From Candidatus Mcinerneyibacteriota bacterium (lineage in GTDB: Bacteria > AUK180 > JAQVHJ01): a stretch of 6,089 bases of DNA. Positions 2,233 to 6,089 of the stretch are shown here, in pieces. The stretch is taken from the NCBI GenBank assembly GCA_030630935.1, contig DAOVMD010000206.1:1-6089 (forward strand). The letters are read 5' to 3'. Under the pieces are notes generated by a model. The model was not told the origin of the DNA. It saw only the letters and a list, made by a program, of their open reading frames with translations, and did no database searches. Each line of letters opens with the position of its first letter. Position 1 is the stretch's first letter. Position numbers and translations under genes: made by a program.

Positions 2233-2613
2233 ATGATAATATTAAAGATTTTTGGAGCTTTATTTGCCGTAGTTTTAATTTTTGTGGGCTTAATGTTTTT
2301 AGTTGCGACTGCCTCAACTGCTGGGTTAAAGATAGGCGGAGTCTTTTTAATCATAGCTGGAATCAGTTTTTTTATAATAATATTTAAAGGTTCCAAATCA
2401 AGCGCTTCCGGTTCTGGTGAGGGTGATGTTAAGATTATTCATAATGTTACAGTTGATCTTCCGGAAGATGCAAAGTTAAAGGAGTTTCTTTGCAAGAACT
2501 GTGGTGCTTCAATAAAACCTGAGAACTTAAAATTTACCGAGGCCGGGTCAATCATGGTGACCTGTCCTTATTGCAGTACTTCTTACGAGATTCAAGAGGA
2601 ACCCAAGTGGTAG
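2233..2613 (+). CDS. Small two-helix membrane protein with C-terminal zinc ribbon
   Basis: A 126-residue protein I cannot assign to a named family. Residues 3-26 and 33-51 are two transmembrane helices joined by a short turn, followed by a Ser/Gly-rich linker (53-64). The C-terminal domain at 85-118 carries two paired cysteines, Cys87-Lys-Asn-Cys90 and Cys111-Pro-Tyr-Cys114, with a 20-residue gap: a classic zinc-ribbon pattern. After a helical hairpin, both termini most likely lie in the cytosol. The ATG at 2233 has AGGAAGG (2218-2224) 8 nt upstream and follows the transglycosylase stop by only 20 nt. It may be transcribed by readthrough from upstream and could serve the following radical SAM/DUF2207 pair as an accessory, but adjacency is the only evidence for this. 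Confidence 0.85.
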   Translation: MIILKIFGALFAVVLIFVGLMFLVATASTAGLKIGGVFLIIAGISFFIIIFKGSKSSASGSGEGDVKIIHNVTVDLPEDAKLKEFLCKNCGASIKPENLKFTEAGSIMVTCPYCSTSYEIQEEPKW

Positions 2614-2757: not shown

Positions 2758-4110
2758 ATGGGACTAAGGGAATTTTTTATAAAGGCCCCAGGTGTGAAGC
2801 CGGGTTTATATGATTACATCGGCGAAGGTGATTTAGAGAATTATAAATTACATCTCAGGGTTGAGCTTGATGGAACCGGGATATTAATGGTTAATGCTTC
2901 GAGAATTATTCATTGTAATGAGACAGCAGTTTATTATATATATTGTATATTTCAGGGTATGACGATTGAAGAGATTATTCCATTTGTCAGAAACAATTTT
3001 AAAGGTGTTAAACCTGAAGAGATCCGGAAAGATTTTAACAGGATTAAAGACATTATAATTAATTTTTCTAACACTGAAGATGTTTGTCCTGTTACATATT
3101 TTGATATTGAAATGATTGAACCTTTCACGAAGAAATTATCCGCACCTTATCGTATGGATCTTGCTCTTACATATAAATGTCAAAATAAATGTACACACTG
3201 TTATTCATCCAGTCCCCGCACTGCAAAAGAATTGAAAACAGATGAGTGGGTCAGGATAATTAAAGATTTATGGAATGTAGGGATTCCACATATCGTTTTC
3301 ACCGGTGGAGAATCAACAACCCGTGACGATCTCCCTGAATTAATCCAGGCAGCTGAGGAAATTGGGGCAATCACCGGACTTTTAACAAACGGTCGACGTC
3401 TTGCAGATAAAGCTTATTTAGATGAACTTGTTTCTGCAGGTTTAGATCATATTCAAATTACACTTGAATCTCATGAAGAATCTATTCATGATAAAATGGT
3501 GGAGTCCCCCGGAGCATTTAAGGAGACTCTACAGGGATTAAAGAATGCAATTGAAACTCCGATATATACAATTACAAACGCAACGTTAACAAAAATAAAT
3601 GCAATTGAATTTCCAACGACAATAAAATTTCTAAAAGACCTTGGGGTTGAAACCTTTGCATGTAATGGTATCATTTATGCCGGTAAGAGCGAAGGGTCCG
3701 AGCTCGGAATATTTGAAGATGACCTTGAACCGTTAATTACTCGAATCAAGGATAAAGCACTTGAGCTTGATATGAGGTTTATGTGGTATACTCCTACCAG
3801 GTATTGTCATTTCAATCCTGTTAACGAAGGGTTGGGTGTCAAGAGATGCACTGCAGGACTTTTTAATATGTGTATTGAACCGGATGGCAATGTAATTCCG
3901 TGTCAATCATATTATAAACCTGTAGGAAATATCCTTACCGATAGCTGGGATTCTATTTGGAATAATGAAATTGTAAAATCAATCAGAGACCGTGCCTGGA
4001 TTCCTGAAGAATGTAAGGATTGCCCTGATCTTTCACTATGCGGAGGTGGTTGTCCTCTCTATAATGAAACAGGGAAGTTGATTTGCGATAGCATTATGGG
4101 AGATGGCTAG
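2758..4110 (+). CDS. Radical SAM/SPASM enzyme with N-terminal PqqD-like (RRE) domain; probable peptide or protein maturase
   Basis: A 450-residue cytosolic iron-sulfur enzyme (numbering from ATG 2758). Residues about 30-103 resemble PqqD-like RiPP recognition domains: GILMVNASRIIHCNETA, then QGMTIEEIIPFV and a helical end at EEIRKDFNRIKDII. The radical SAM core begins near 132 with the CX3CX2C cluster Cys141-Cys145-Cys148, followed by the SAM-contacting TGGES (182-186) and LLTNGRRL (208-215). The C-terminal SPASM domain is complete: Cys364, PDGNVIPC ending at Cys382, then Cys419-X2-Cys422-X5-Cys428-X3-Cys432 and Cys443, enough for auxiliary [4Fe-4S] clusters. This architecture is typical of enzymes that modify ribosomally made peptides (PqqE, AlbA and related sactisynthases). 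The exact reaction cannot be read from sequence. The next gene, 98 nt downstream, ends in a Cys-Ala repeat tail and is the only plausible substrate in view. An alternative is a substrate encoded elsewhere. Confidence 0.9.
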   Translation: MGLREFFIKAPGVKPGLYDYIGEGDLENYKLHLRVELDGTGILMVNASRIIHCNETAVYYIYCIFQGMTIEEIIPFVRNNFKGVKPEEIRKDFNRIKDIIINFSNTEDVCPVTYFDIEMIEPFTKKLSAPYRMDLALTYKCQNKCTHCYSSSPRTAKELKTDEWVRIIKDLWNVGIPHIVFTGGESTTRDDLPELIQAAEEIGAITGLLTNGRRLADKAYLDELVSAGLDHIQITLESHEESIHDKMVESPGAFKETLQGLKNAIETPIYTITNATLTKINAIEFPTTIKFLKDLGVETFACNGIIYAGKSEGSELGIFEDDLEPLITRIKDKALELDMRFMWYTPTRYCHFNPVNEGLGVKRCTAGLFNMCIEPDGNVIPCQSYYKPVGNILTDSWDSIWNNEIVKSIRDRAWIPEECKDCPDLSLCGGGCPLYNETGKLICDSIMGDG

Positions 4111-4138
4111 GTAGTGAGTAGTGAATAGTGAGTAGTGA
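4111..4138 (+). repeat. Four tandem heptamers GTAGTGA
   Basis: GTAGTGA-GTAGTGA-ATAGTGA-GTAGTGA starts on the base after the radical SAM stop codon, with a decayed fifth unit AAAGTTG. Phased differently the units are GTGAGTA/GTGAATA, matching the reverse-orientation copy at 64-84. It is a dispersed short tandem repeat lying between the two genes; its closeness to the stop means expansion could change the spacing to the next gene without harming either reading frame. Confidence 0.75.
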
Positions 4139-4142
4139 AAAG

Positions 4143-4173
4143 TTGATTAATGGAGAATGTGATATGCTTAATA
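4143..4173 (+). promoter_or_regulatory. Weak promoter candidate ahead of the DUF2207-like gene
   Basis: TTGATT (4143-4148) could be a -35 box, and TTAATA (4168-4173), preceded by TGC, could be an extended -10 box, but the 19-bp spacer is long. The gene may instead be co-transcribed with the radical SAM gene, since no terminator is visible in the 98-nt gap. Low confidence. Confidence 0.22.
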
Positions 4174-4196
4174 AAATGATTTCAATATTATAACAT

Positions 4197-4201
4197 GGAG
4201 G
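4197..4201 (+). promoter_or_regulatory. Ribosome binding site for the DUF2207-like gene
   Basis: GGAGG lies 7 nt before the ATG at 4209-4211. A TTG directly before it (4206) is also in frame, but the ATG is the better start and has ideal spacing. Confidence 0.8.
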
Positions 4202-4208
4202 ATTATTG

Positions 4209-5798
4209 ATGAAGCGTAGATTTGTTATTTTATTAATATTGTTATGCGGCTTAGTTTCATTTACATCAGCCCAGGATTATTATTTCGGTATTCCAAAGTA
4301 CACAGTTGATGTATATATTCAGAAGGATGCTTCAATTGATATTGATTATAATATTACATTTGCTCCTGTAAGGGATTCCCATTCCGTTGATATTGTTGAT
4401 ATCGGATTCCCTACTACGGCATATAAATTAAACAGTATCAGCGCATCAGTTGACGGGCATGAAATACCACGGAGCAGCATCAAGACTTCAACATATATTG
4501 ATATTGGAGTTGAGATTCATTTGGGTAGTCATACAATAATGCCGGGGGATCAAGGAACTTTATTCGTTCATGGTAATAATCCTAAAATGGTTTTTCAAGA
4601 TAAAAAGAAGAATGATTATGCGAGTGTTGAGTTTGTCCCGACTTGGTTTGGGAGTAAGTATGTAAGCGGATATACAAAATTAACAATCAATATCCATTTC
4701 CCCGCAGGTGTAGGTCCGGATGAAACCATTTATCATTATTATGAATTTACTAATACTTTCAGGGATAATCTTAACAGGATAACTTTCTCCTGGGAATGGG
4801 ATAATGCAAGGATGTCTGATCAATATCGGGTAGGGGTTTCATTCCCGAAAAAATATGTTGATAGGATTTATAAAAAGAGTGCAGGTGTTCATTTTAAGAA
4901 ATTCTTTTCAGGATTATTTGGTTTTTTATGTAATCCTTGTATGTTCATTTTTTATTTCGTTGGTTTTGCAGTTGGGATTGGTATCTGGTCATCTAAATTT
5001 CGAATGAAAAAATACCTCCCGCCATCATTAAAAGTTGAAGGTGTGGGAATAAAACGAGGATTAACCGCAGTTGAAGCTGCAATCCTTGGAGAGATGCCTT
5101 TGAATAAAGTAACATCAATGATAATCTTCGGGTTAGTTAAGAAGAAAGGAATAAAAATCAAAACCTTCAAACCCTTAAATTTAAGCAAAACTAACATTAA
5201 ACACCCCTGGTATGATTATGAAGAAGATTTCCTGAAAGCAATTAAGGAGAAGACAGGGAAATTAAATAAAACGGAATTAAAAGATTTAATGGTTAAACTT
5301 ATTAAGAAAGTTGCAAAGAAATTAAAAGGGTTTAACTTAAGCATGACCAGGAAATATTATAAGTCAATTGTCAGCAATGCCTGGCAGTTAGTGAGAAAAG
5401 CCAATATTCCACAGATTCAATCTGAAACAATTAACCGGAACTTAGAATGGCTTCTTATGGATAAGCATTTTGATGATAAGTTTAAAAATATTCCATTTGA
5501 AAATATATATGTGCCTTCTTATTGGTATCATCATATTCCATATCGCGGTGGCGGTCAGTCAACAGGTGATATGGTTAAGTTCCCGAGCTTGGACTTTGCA
5601 AATGATTTCGTGAAAGGATTTCAAGTTATGTCCGATAATATTGTTTCGGATGTTCAAGGTTTATTCTCCGGTGTTACAAAGGTTACAAATCCACCGCCAA
5701 AACCTTCGTCGGGCGGATATAGTTCTTCAGGTGGTGGTTGTGCGTGTGCGTGTGCGTGTGCAGGTTGTGCGTGTGCTTGCGCCGGTGGTGGTAGATAA
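4209..5798 (+). CDS. DUF2207-like membrane protein with C-terminal Cys-Ala repeat tail
   Basis: A 529-residue protein (numbering from ATG 4209) with DUF2207-type architecture; the family's biochemical role is unknown. Residues 1-21 are a signal peptide (VILLILLCGLVSFTSA). Residues about 23-220 form a beta-rich outer domain (YTVDVYIQKDASIDIDYNI, with a conserved-looking VEFVPTWFGS). A transmembrane segment at about 236-261 contains Cys-Asn-Pro-Cys (241-244). The cytosolic part begins with basic SSKFRMKKY and PPSLK, then GLTAVEAAILGE (284-295) and a helix set typical of the family (VTSMIIFGLVKKKGIKIK). Beyond about 440 it is linker-like, reaching a Pro/Ser/Gly stretch (NPPPKPSSGGYSSS). The last 22 residues are GGG, (CA)4, G, (CA)3, GGGR, with cysteines at 511, 513, 515, 517, 520, 522 and 524. 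Many relatives end in plain Gly-rich tails, so the alternating cysteines are the unusual part. The topology puts the tail on the same side of the membrane as the upstream radical SAM enzyme. Confidence 0.85.
   Translation: MKRRFVILLILLCGLVSFTSAQDYYFGIPKYTVDVYIQKDASIDIDYNITFAPVRDSHSVDIVDIGFPTTAYKLNSISASVDGHEIPRSSIKTSTYIDIGVEIHLGSHTIMPGDQGTLFVHGNNPKMVFQDKKKNDYASVEFVPTWFGSKYVSGYTKLTINIHFPAGVGPDETIYHYYEFTNTFRDNLNRITFSWEWDNARMSDQYRVGVSFPKKYVDRIYKKSAGVHFKKFFSGLFGFLCNPCMFIFYFVGFAVGIGIWSSKFRMKKYLPPSLKVEGVGIKRGLTAVEAAILGEMPLNKVTSMIIFGLVKKKGIKIKTFKPLNLSKTNIKHPWYDYEEDFLKAIKEKTGKLNKTELKDLMVKLIKKVAKKLKGFNLSMTRKYYKSIVSNAWQLVRKANIPQIQSETINRNLEWLLMDKHFDDKFKNIPFENIYVPSYWYHHIPYRGGGQSTGDMVKFPSLDFANDFVKGFQVMSDNIVSDVQGLFSGVTKVTNPPPKPSSGGYSSSGGGCACACACAGCACACAGGGR
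5739..5783 (+). repeat. In-frame tandem repeat encoding the Cys-Ala tail
   Basis: Three perfect TGTGCG hexamers and one TGTGCA (5739-5762) are followed by GGT and then TGTGCG, TGTGCT and TGCGCC. The first 24 nt alternate strictly between pyrimidine and purine, which is slippage-prone and can favour Z-DNA. Each gain or loss of a hexamer keeps the frame and adds or removes one Cys-Ala pair. The later units use different codons (GCG, GCT, GCC; TGT, TGC), which suggests the peptide pattern is kept by selection and is not only recent slippage. Confidence 0.85.
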
Positions 5799-5870: not shown

Positions 5871-5924
5871 GCTCAATCAACTCTCATATACCAAATTGGA
5901 TATACGACGCAGTGTTGTTTGAGC
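5871..5924. repeat. Inverted repeat GCTCAA-N-CAAC, copy 2 with larger interior
   Basis: Arms 5871-5881 (GCTCAATCAAC) and 5914-5924 (GTTGTTTGAGC) pair at 10 of 11 positions with a T-T mismatch at the seventh, exactly where copy 1 (86-110) has its mismatch. Outside the arms both copies share CACT on the left and A on the right. The interior contains a second stem, TATA-CCAA / TTGG-A-TATA (about 5887-5904). It looks like a longer member of a small palindromic repeat family; I see no gene in it. Confidence 0.6.
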
Positions 5925-5934
5925 AGATAATAGA

Positions 5935-5967: not shown

Positions 5968-6003
5968 CGCGGAAGCAGACGTTTTATAAATTGTAGAAAG
6001 CAG

Positions 6004-6089
6004 AAAAACCTTTAACCACTGAACACACTGATCACACTGTAAAGATAAAGAAAAACTTTTAATCACGGATCTCACTGATCACACTGTAA
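6004..6089 (+). repeat. Two 39-nt direct repeats built from 9-nt CACTGATCA units
   Basis: 6004-6042 and 6051-6089 match at 34 of 39 positions with a 47-nt period, both ending CACTGATCACACTGTAA. Within each, the units are 9-mers: CACTGAACA-CACTGATCA-CACTGTAAA in the first and CACGGATCT-CACTGATCA-CACTGTAA in the second. The core ACTGATCACACTG also occurs at 5859-5871, directly before the inverted repeat. The array runs to the window edge and may continue. Spacers are not uniform and units are degenerate, so it is not a CRISPR. Confidence 0.75.

Follow-up and report, generated by a model that had tools for sequence, protein, structure and literature searches.

Three neighboring genes on a 6,089-nt contig of a Candidatus Mcinerneyibacteriota bacterium (DAOVMD010000206.1, from assembly GCA_030630935.1) encode a small zinc-ribbon membrane protein (Zr), a radical S-adenosylmethionine (SAM) enzyme (E) and a membrane protein (S) that ends in a run of regularly spaced cysteines. 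Comparing these genes across bacterial and archaeal genomes, we conclude with a probability of about 70% that Zr, S and E constitute a dedicated protein-modification cassette, in which E modifies the tail of S, most likely by Cys thioether cross-links, and S is not cleaved. The entire contig, referred to here as the window, is one of 471 in a 3.16-Mb genome assembly; a single strand of it codes for a tetratricopeptide repeat (TPR) protein, an MltD-like transglycosylase, Zr, E and S, in that order.

Exclusive pairing of E with S

A profile of E was scanned against approximately 85,000 species genomes, yielding 528 candidate loci, and the best 80 (44-53% identity) were used for comparison. These come mainly from Chloroflexota (Anaerolineae) and Bathyarchaeota, with a few from Actinomycetota, Acidobacteriota and Thermoplasmata. 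A Cys-tailed S adjoins E in 73 of the 80 loci: in 72 it ends just 5' of E, with a median gap of 12 nt and a gap of at most 150 nt in 70 of the 72, and in the other (L094) the tail contains a frame break. The loci with no adjacent S are L036, L037, L039 and L057, together with L072, L077 and L095, which are cut at contig ends. For L036, L037 and L057, the same genome encodes a Cys-tailed S at another site; none was found in that of L039. At L036, L037 and L039, E, lying away from S, adjoins recurrent open reading frames (ORFs) of about 550 and about 250 residues. The window, where E precedes S, inverts the usual S-E arrangement, a point absent from the original prediction.

Furthermore, neither the tail nor the full-length enzyme was found to occur alone in the two groups surveyed. 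Among 350 Chloroflexota genomes, the CACAxCACACA pattern was present in the DNA of 23 and full-length E (at least 618 bits) in the identical 23; in addition, one genome (G248) encodes a more distant E (421 bits) and an S with an ACHS/ACVHD tail, and another (G208) encodes a pseudo-enzyme only. Among 200 bathyarchaeal genomes, the tail was found in nine and E in the identical nine (one E being a fragment), and one further genome gave a weak radical SAM match only. We report counts and no probability because species are not independent samples. Ordinary DUF2207 proteins, whose tails are Gly-rich and Cys-free wherever the true end could be read, occur in 76 of the 350 Chloroflexota genomes, and four of these genomes are among the 23, roughly as expected with no association. 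The comparison of Cys-tailed with plain Gly-tailed DUF2207 homologues, proposed in the original prediction, came out in its favor. Of the three outcomes that it named as refuting, the two examined here did not arise: homologues with the tail do not routinely lack the enzyme, and the neighbor of E at other loci is the same kind of S and not some other precursor. The window had also been described as containing no short Cys-rich precursor, and across the loci none is conserved: of 126 small ORFs rich in Cys in the neighborhood of E, the largest set of recurrent ones (8 loci) was rejected as a precursor because it is an out-of-frame reading within the gene of the pseudo-enzyme described below.

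The pairing extends to a sister clade with a different tail. The first relative of E came from a distant genome (G083; 33% identity), in which the adjoining S is homologous to the window S (pairwise expect value 1e-10) and ends in another Cys repeat, ACHAACHNACHNACHSACHS... In the phylum of G083, E was found in five of eight genomes, each time adjoining an S with nine ACHx-type units, and seven loci pair an enzyme of the sister clade with an S homologue that has an (ACHx)n tail. In a tree of 59 sequences, the enzymes paired with CA-type tails, the bathyarchaeal enzymes and the pseudo-enzymes form one group (100/100), with the bathyarchaeal set at 82/89, and the ACHx enzymes form a separate group (82/73). 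The tail class of S tracks the enzyme tree.

The original prediction had read E as a PqqD-like domain followed by radical SAM and complete SPASM domains, and each of the three was recovered, PqqD at the level of the family. In the window E, Radical_SAM (90.7 bits) and SPASM (42.6 bits; cut-off 21.5) both pass their Pfam cut-offs, and seven of the eight SPASM cysteines are invariant in the family alignment, with C443 the exception. Taken by itself, the window E scores 13.7 bits with PqqD, below the cut-off, yet 18 of 18 proteins of the family match PqqD (best expect value 1.3e-8), and the family profile also matches the lasso peptide RiPP recognition element (RRE) TfuB1 (3.3e-5), where RiPP denotes a ribosomally synthesized and post-translationally modified peptide. 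By these profile matches the E family clearly bears an RRE. The predicted model of E (predicted local distance difference test score (pLDDT) 84; predicted template modeling score (pTM) 0.86) has as its nearest solved folds SkfB (Z 27.5; root-mean-square deviation (rmsd) 3.9 over 347 residues) and SuiB (Z 27.1; rmsd 3.6 over 374 residues), with CteB and PqqE also among the nearest.

Translation of E starts at ATG 2758, preceded by AAGGAG, and stops at 4110; an alternative TTG start at 2695 is possible in the ORF, but homologues align from the ATG. The S ORF runs from ATG 4209 to a stop at 5798, and both genes have a plausible ribosome-binding site. These ORFs agree with the coordinates given previously, as does the 98-nt gap between them on the same strand (4111-4208). 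In a comparison of the window proteins with NCBIfam, for which the best 25 matches were listed, E lies below the curated cut-off of every named maturase among those matches (score/cut-off: PqqE 124.6/381.35, SkfB 95.9/300, StsB 78/625, ACGX 67.7/400, AlbA 65.5/850). A role in heme synthesis (NirJ, Ahb) was rejected, as scores were far under the cut-offs and no such gene recurs nearby, and a defense role (PADLOC) was rejected because the similarity was a generic one to viperin and methyltransferases. No plasmid copy of E was found at an expect value of 1e-40.

The cysteine tail and its proposed modification

The final 22 residues of the window S, GGGCACACACAGCACACAGGGR, contain seven regularly spaced cysteines, just as had been described. 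In bacteria the tail takes the form (CA)3-5-G-(CA)3-GGGR, and in Bathyarchaeota the form SCVCACA-S-CACACACV-S-CACACA; tails hold from six to ten or more cysteines. Sixty tails share identical last 15 residues yet are encoded by 60 distinct DNA sequences, with a mean pairwise difference of 56% at codon position 3 and 1.6% at positions 1 and 2, and all six Arg codons are used for the terminal residue. Whole S proteins, in comparison, share just 27-41% identity with the window S. The tail is therefore under strong selection at the protein level, and its codon diversity rules out a microsatellite origin. Cys is constant in all tail classes, whereas Ala, Val, His, Ser and Asn vary.

A third tail style, ACHSACHSACVHDACHS..., was seen in Chloroflexota at L144:10090-11808 and L145:4049-5794 (both on the minus strand) and once shares a genome (G123) with a CA-type cassette. 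A Chloroflexota genome also encodes a 302-residue protein at L194:1462-2370 that scores above the TIGR04222 cut-off and carries an irregular Cys/Gly tail, GCGSSCGASCGG...

S was originally called DUF2207-like, which holds as a remote relationship and not as membership: against a PF09972 cut-off of 24.4 bits, the window S scores 12.4 and a homologue 23.5. Similarly, an ACHx-type S scores 22.8 bits against a TIGR04222 cut-off of 43 (expect value 5.9e-5), 3 of 37 members of the S family match TIGR04222 below the cut-off, and TIGR04222 is not among the NCBIfam matches listed for the window S. Among ordinary DUF2207 proteins, the TIGR04222 and PF09972 profiles hit identical ORFs (for example on G203:C7), which suggests that S belongs with DUF2207 and TIGR04222 proteins in one broad type. 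In the predicted model of S (pLDDT 83; pTM 0.46) the C-terminal domain is mostly helical. The modeled beta domain resembles that of the luminal part of yeast Ost1 (ribophorin I), with Z 17.4 and an rmsd of 2.6 over 180 residues; the N-domain of M1 aminopeptidases is a more distant match (Z about 12). Such likeness of a predicted fold says nothing on function.

In the arrangement that we propose, S sits in the membrane, its N-terminal beta domain lies outside, and the C-terminal domain and the tail are most likely cytosolic, a placement favored by the mean net charge of S proteins (+0.1 before the last transmembrane (TM) helix and +2.6 after it). E would bind S through its RRE and, using SAM and three predicted Fe-S clusters, would modify the Cys repeats of the tail, which we infer to be the site of modification. 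S would substitute for the leader peptide and stay uncut, and the product would be a membrane protein with a modified Cys module. No protease or exporter is common to the loci: the best cluster of that kind, weakly similar to Peptidase_Mx, occurs in 12 of 84, and another that resembles signal peptidases occurs in 8. Given its zinc-ribbon partner, the finished tail may have a role that involves metal or redox chemistry.

By analogy, the most likely modification is Cys thioether cross-linking of the kind found in sactipeptides and ranthipeptides. RRE-bearing radical SAM/SPASM enzymes with the fold of E modify ribosomal substrates, known sactipeptides are mostly hairpins with Cys donors N-terminal and acceptors C-terminal, and SkfB takes Ala as an acceptor (PMC8326336). 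In (CA)4-G-(CA)3 the repeats lie in antiphase around the central Gly, such that a tail folded into a hairpin would bring every Cys on one arm face to face with an Ala across from it, and archaeal tails retain this spacing with one break residue between blocks. The arrangement would suit nested Cys-to-Ala links. A more detailed picture can be drawn only tentatively, and we consider it possible rather than probable: in this system of archaea and bacteria the tail would be a permanently tethered hairpin with nested Cys-to-Ala thioethers, the (CA)n-G-(CA)3 pattern would set the Cys and Ala partners, and a dead radical SAM paralogue would serve as an accessory in Anaerolineae.

Several observations weigh against parts of this proposal. 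By hydropathy, 40 of 69 S proteins have one internal TM segment, 24 have two and 5 have three, and the 29 with more than one weaken the case for a cytosolic tail; for related TIGR04222 proteins, a periplasmic tail has been predicted (PMC12452194). The (ACHx)n tails, with a period of four, misfit a Gly-centered hairpin. Downstream of the enzyme genes, 40 loci carry a gene for a class I methyltransferase (for example L045:8527-9273), so other chemistry may be added. Finally, nearly all of the genomes are metagenome-assembled genomes (MAGs). The cassette is also present (L099) in a named strain, Thermanaerothrix daxensis GNS-1, whose native protein is thus open to direct examination.

The alternative that survives best, though it is unlikely, is that E modifies the tail without forming thioethers, by epimerization, C-C links, heterocycles or methylation together with the neighboring methyltransferase. 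Radical SAM/SPASM enzymes of the same fold do form C-C links (SuiB, PqqE) and other bonds, and TvgB, which produces cyclopropylglycine in TVGG repeats, is a precedent for repeat-directed radical SAM chemistry on carbon (PMC9062424). The constancy of Cys among otherwise variable tail residues, however, points to sulfur, and the methyltransferase gene that would serve such chemistry is found neither in the window nor in the archaeal loci except L033. It is less probable still that the tail is an unmodified poly-thiol binding a metal or Fe-S cluster, perhaps for E or Zr, while E acts elsewhere. A flexible tail with this many cysteines and a zinc-ribbon partner would agree with such a role, but a simple metal-binding tail would not be expected to pair exclusively with an enzyme that has an RRE and a peptide-maturase fold, and the cassette offers no other conserved candidate substrate.

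We regard as very improbable that S is an oversized but conventional RiPP precursor, whose modified tail would be cut free by a protease and leave the cell as a small product. RRE-dependent radical SAM chemistry is typical of RiPPs and a Gly-rich linker does precede the tail, yet the loci share no protease or exporter and the body of S is retained, at 27-41% identity to the window S. The description of the system as RiPP-like therefore stands for the type of enzyme, with no sign of a peptide that is cut off or exported. Lastly, uneven phylogenetic sampling of MAGs could in principle produce co-inherited neighbors of unrelated function, but this explanation is scarcely credible for a pairing that spans archaeal and bacterial phyla, occurs in both gene orders and persists as joint presence even where the two genes lie apart in the genome.

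Other cassette members and surroundings of the window

Zr, overlooked in the original prediction, belongs to the gene set. A similar gene lies directly 5' of S in 58 of the 64 cases that could be assessed, and its clustered members have the CxxC..CxxC motif in 42 of 42 and two TM segments in 37 of 42; zinc-ribbon matches to the window Zr are below cut-off. Many Anaerolineae loci carry, downstream of E, the methyltransferase gene and also a paralogue of E without the radical SAM and SPASM cysteines (L045:7351-8514 and some 45 further ORFs), with CX3CX2C missing in 45 of 46. These pseudo-enzymes keep the fold and the RRE region and form one clade (100/100) beside the Chloroflexota enzymes. Conservation of a dead paralogue together with its RRE region suggests a role in substrate binding or scaffolding.

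The TPR protein and the MltD-like lytic transglycosylase lie 5' of the cassette on the same strand (286-2212), and neither gene recurs among the conserved neighbors at other loci. The contig end carries two copies of a 41-nt repeat (6002-6089), and inverted repeats link intergenic stretches (77-97 with 5913-5933, and 58-90 with 4115-4147); these are perhaps dispersed repeats at which the assembly broke. No Rfam RNA was found in the window.

Features of the cassette in the window, with the basis of each assignment
Feature	Position	Strand	Basis
Zr, 126-aa membrane protein; two predicted TM helices, C-terminal zinc ribbon (CxxC...CxxC, ending EEPKW)	2233..2613	+	conserved partner
E, RRE/radical SAM/SPASM enzyme, 450 aa	2758..4110	+	Pfam Radical_SAM and SPASM above cut-off; model closest to SkfB/SuiB
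RRE (PqqD-like winged helix), E residues ~16-105	2803..3072	+	model elements E16-21 to H86-105; profile matches
Radical SAM cluster motif CX3CX2C (C141, C145, C148)	3178..3201	+	invariant across family alignments
SPASM region, ligands C350, C364, C382, C419, C422, C428, C432, C443	3805..4086	+	Pfam SPASM; alignment
S, membrane protein of DUF2207/TIGR04222 type (529 aa), proposed substrate	4209..5798	+	homology to G083 S; adjoins E
Predicted signal peptide, S residues 1-22	4209..4274	+	hydropathy segment 1-19; model helix 2-15
Extracytoplasmic beta domain (predicted), S residues 22-216	4272..4856	+	model fold like yeast Ost1 (ribophorin I) luminal domain
Predicted TM helix region, S residues ~233-263	4905..4997	+	hydropathy; model helix 243-263
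C-terminal domain, S residues ~271-500, remote TIGR04222 relation	5019..5708	+	below-cut-off TIGR04222 matches
Cys tail GGG-(CA)4-G-(CA)3-GGGR, proposed modification site	5730..5795	+	near invariance in 60 loci; disordered in model

Relation to known systems

RRE-bearing radical SAM/SPASM enzymes are regarded mainly as makers of small peptides. Here the partner of such an enzyme is an entire membrane protein, and its tail is near-identical across phyla. Like E, the enzymes SkfB, AlbA and CteB combine an RRE, a radical SAM domain and a SPASM or twitch domain in the same fold, and their Cys-containing targets are encoded next door. In sactipeptides and ranthipeptides, however, the target is a short leader-bearing precursor that gives a released product, whereas S is a 529-residue membrane protein with no separate leader. 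The ACGX-repeat system (TIGR04340) links by name a radical SAM/SPASM enzyme to a four-residue Cys repeat resembling (ACHx)n, and against its cut-off of 400 the ACHx-type E scores 97.4, compared with 67.7 for the window E. Ordinary DUF2207 proteins (PF09972) share with S an N-terminal extracytoplasmic domain, a TM segment and a Gly-rich C-terminus but, unlike S, have Cys-free tails and no link to E.

The closest parallel on the substrate side comes from Antoine et al. (2025; PMC12452194), who propose that multinuclear non-heme iron oxidases (MNIOs) act on TIGR04222 membrane proteins whose C-termini are rich in Cys. The two systems have in common the broad type of membrane protein, a low-complexity Cys tail, an adjacent gene for a post-translational modification enzyme and a substrate role proposed on genomic grounds. 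They differ in the enzyme, an MNIO there and a radical SAM enzyme here, and in the tails, which there are Ser/Gly-rich with interspersed Cys, mostly from Actinomycetota and predicted to be periplasmic. One third of TIGR04222-bearing genomes lack an MNIO by that account, and its accessible part makes no mention of a radical SAM counterpart. The S proteins of the cassette fall below the TIGR04222 cut-off, and no MNIO appears among the Pfam or NCBIfam matches listed for the five window proteins. The above-cut-off protein at L194, with its GCGSSCGASCGG tail, offers a useful comparison for the MNIO proposal.

On the enzyme side, QhpD is a radical SAM enzyme that cross-links Cys within a protein subunit, QhpC, which remains a protein, as would S (PMC7876137). 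Unlike S, QhpC is small and loses a 28-residue leader, and its links join Cys to Asp or Glu. No published account of the E/S system was found in the literature searched, most subscription papers lying outside its coverage. E and S appear to form an uncharacterised system that combines traits of the MNIO substrates with those of QhpD. If the tail is cross-linked, chemistry of this kind would also build permanent modules on membrane proteins, its simple repeat would offer a way to study the choice and order of links made by such enzymes, and E would be a second, independent type of enzyme, besides MNIO, acting on the tails of one kind of membrane protein.

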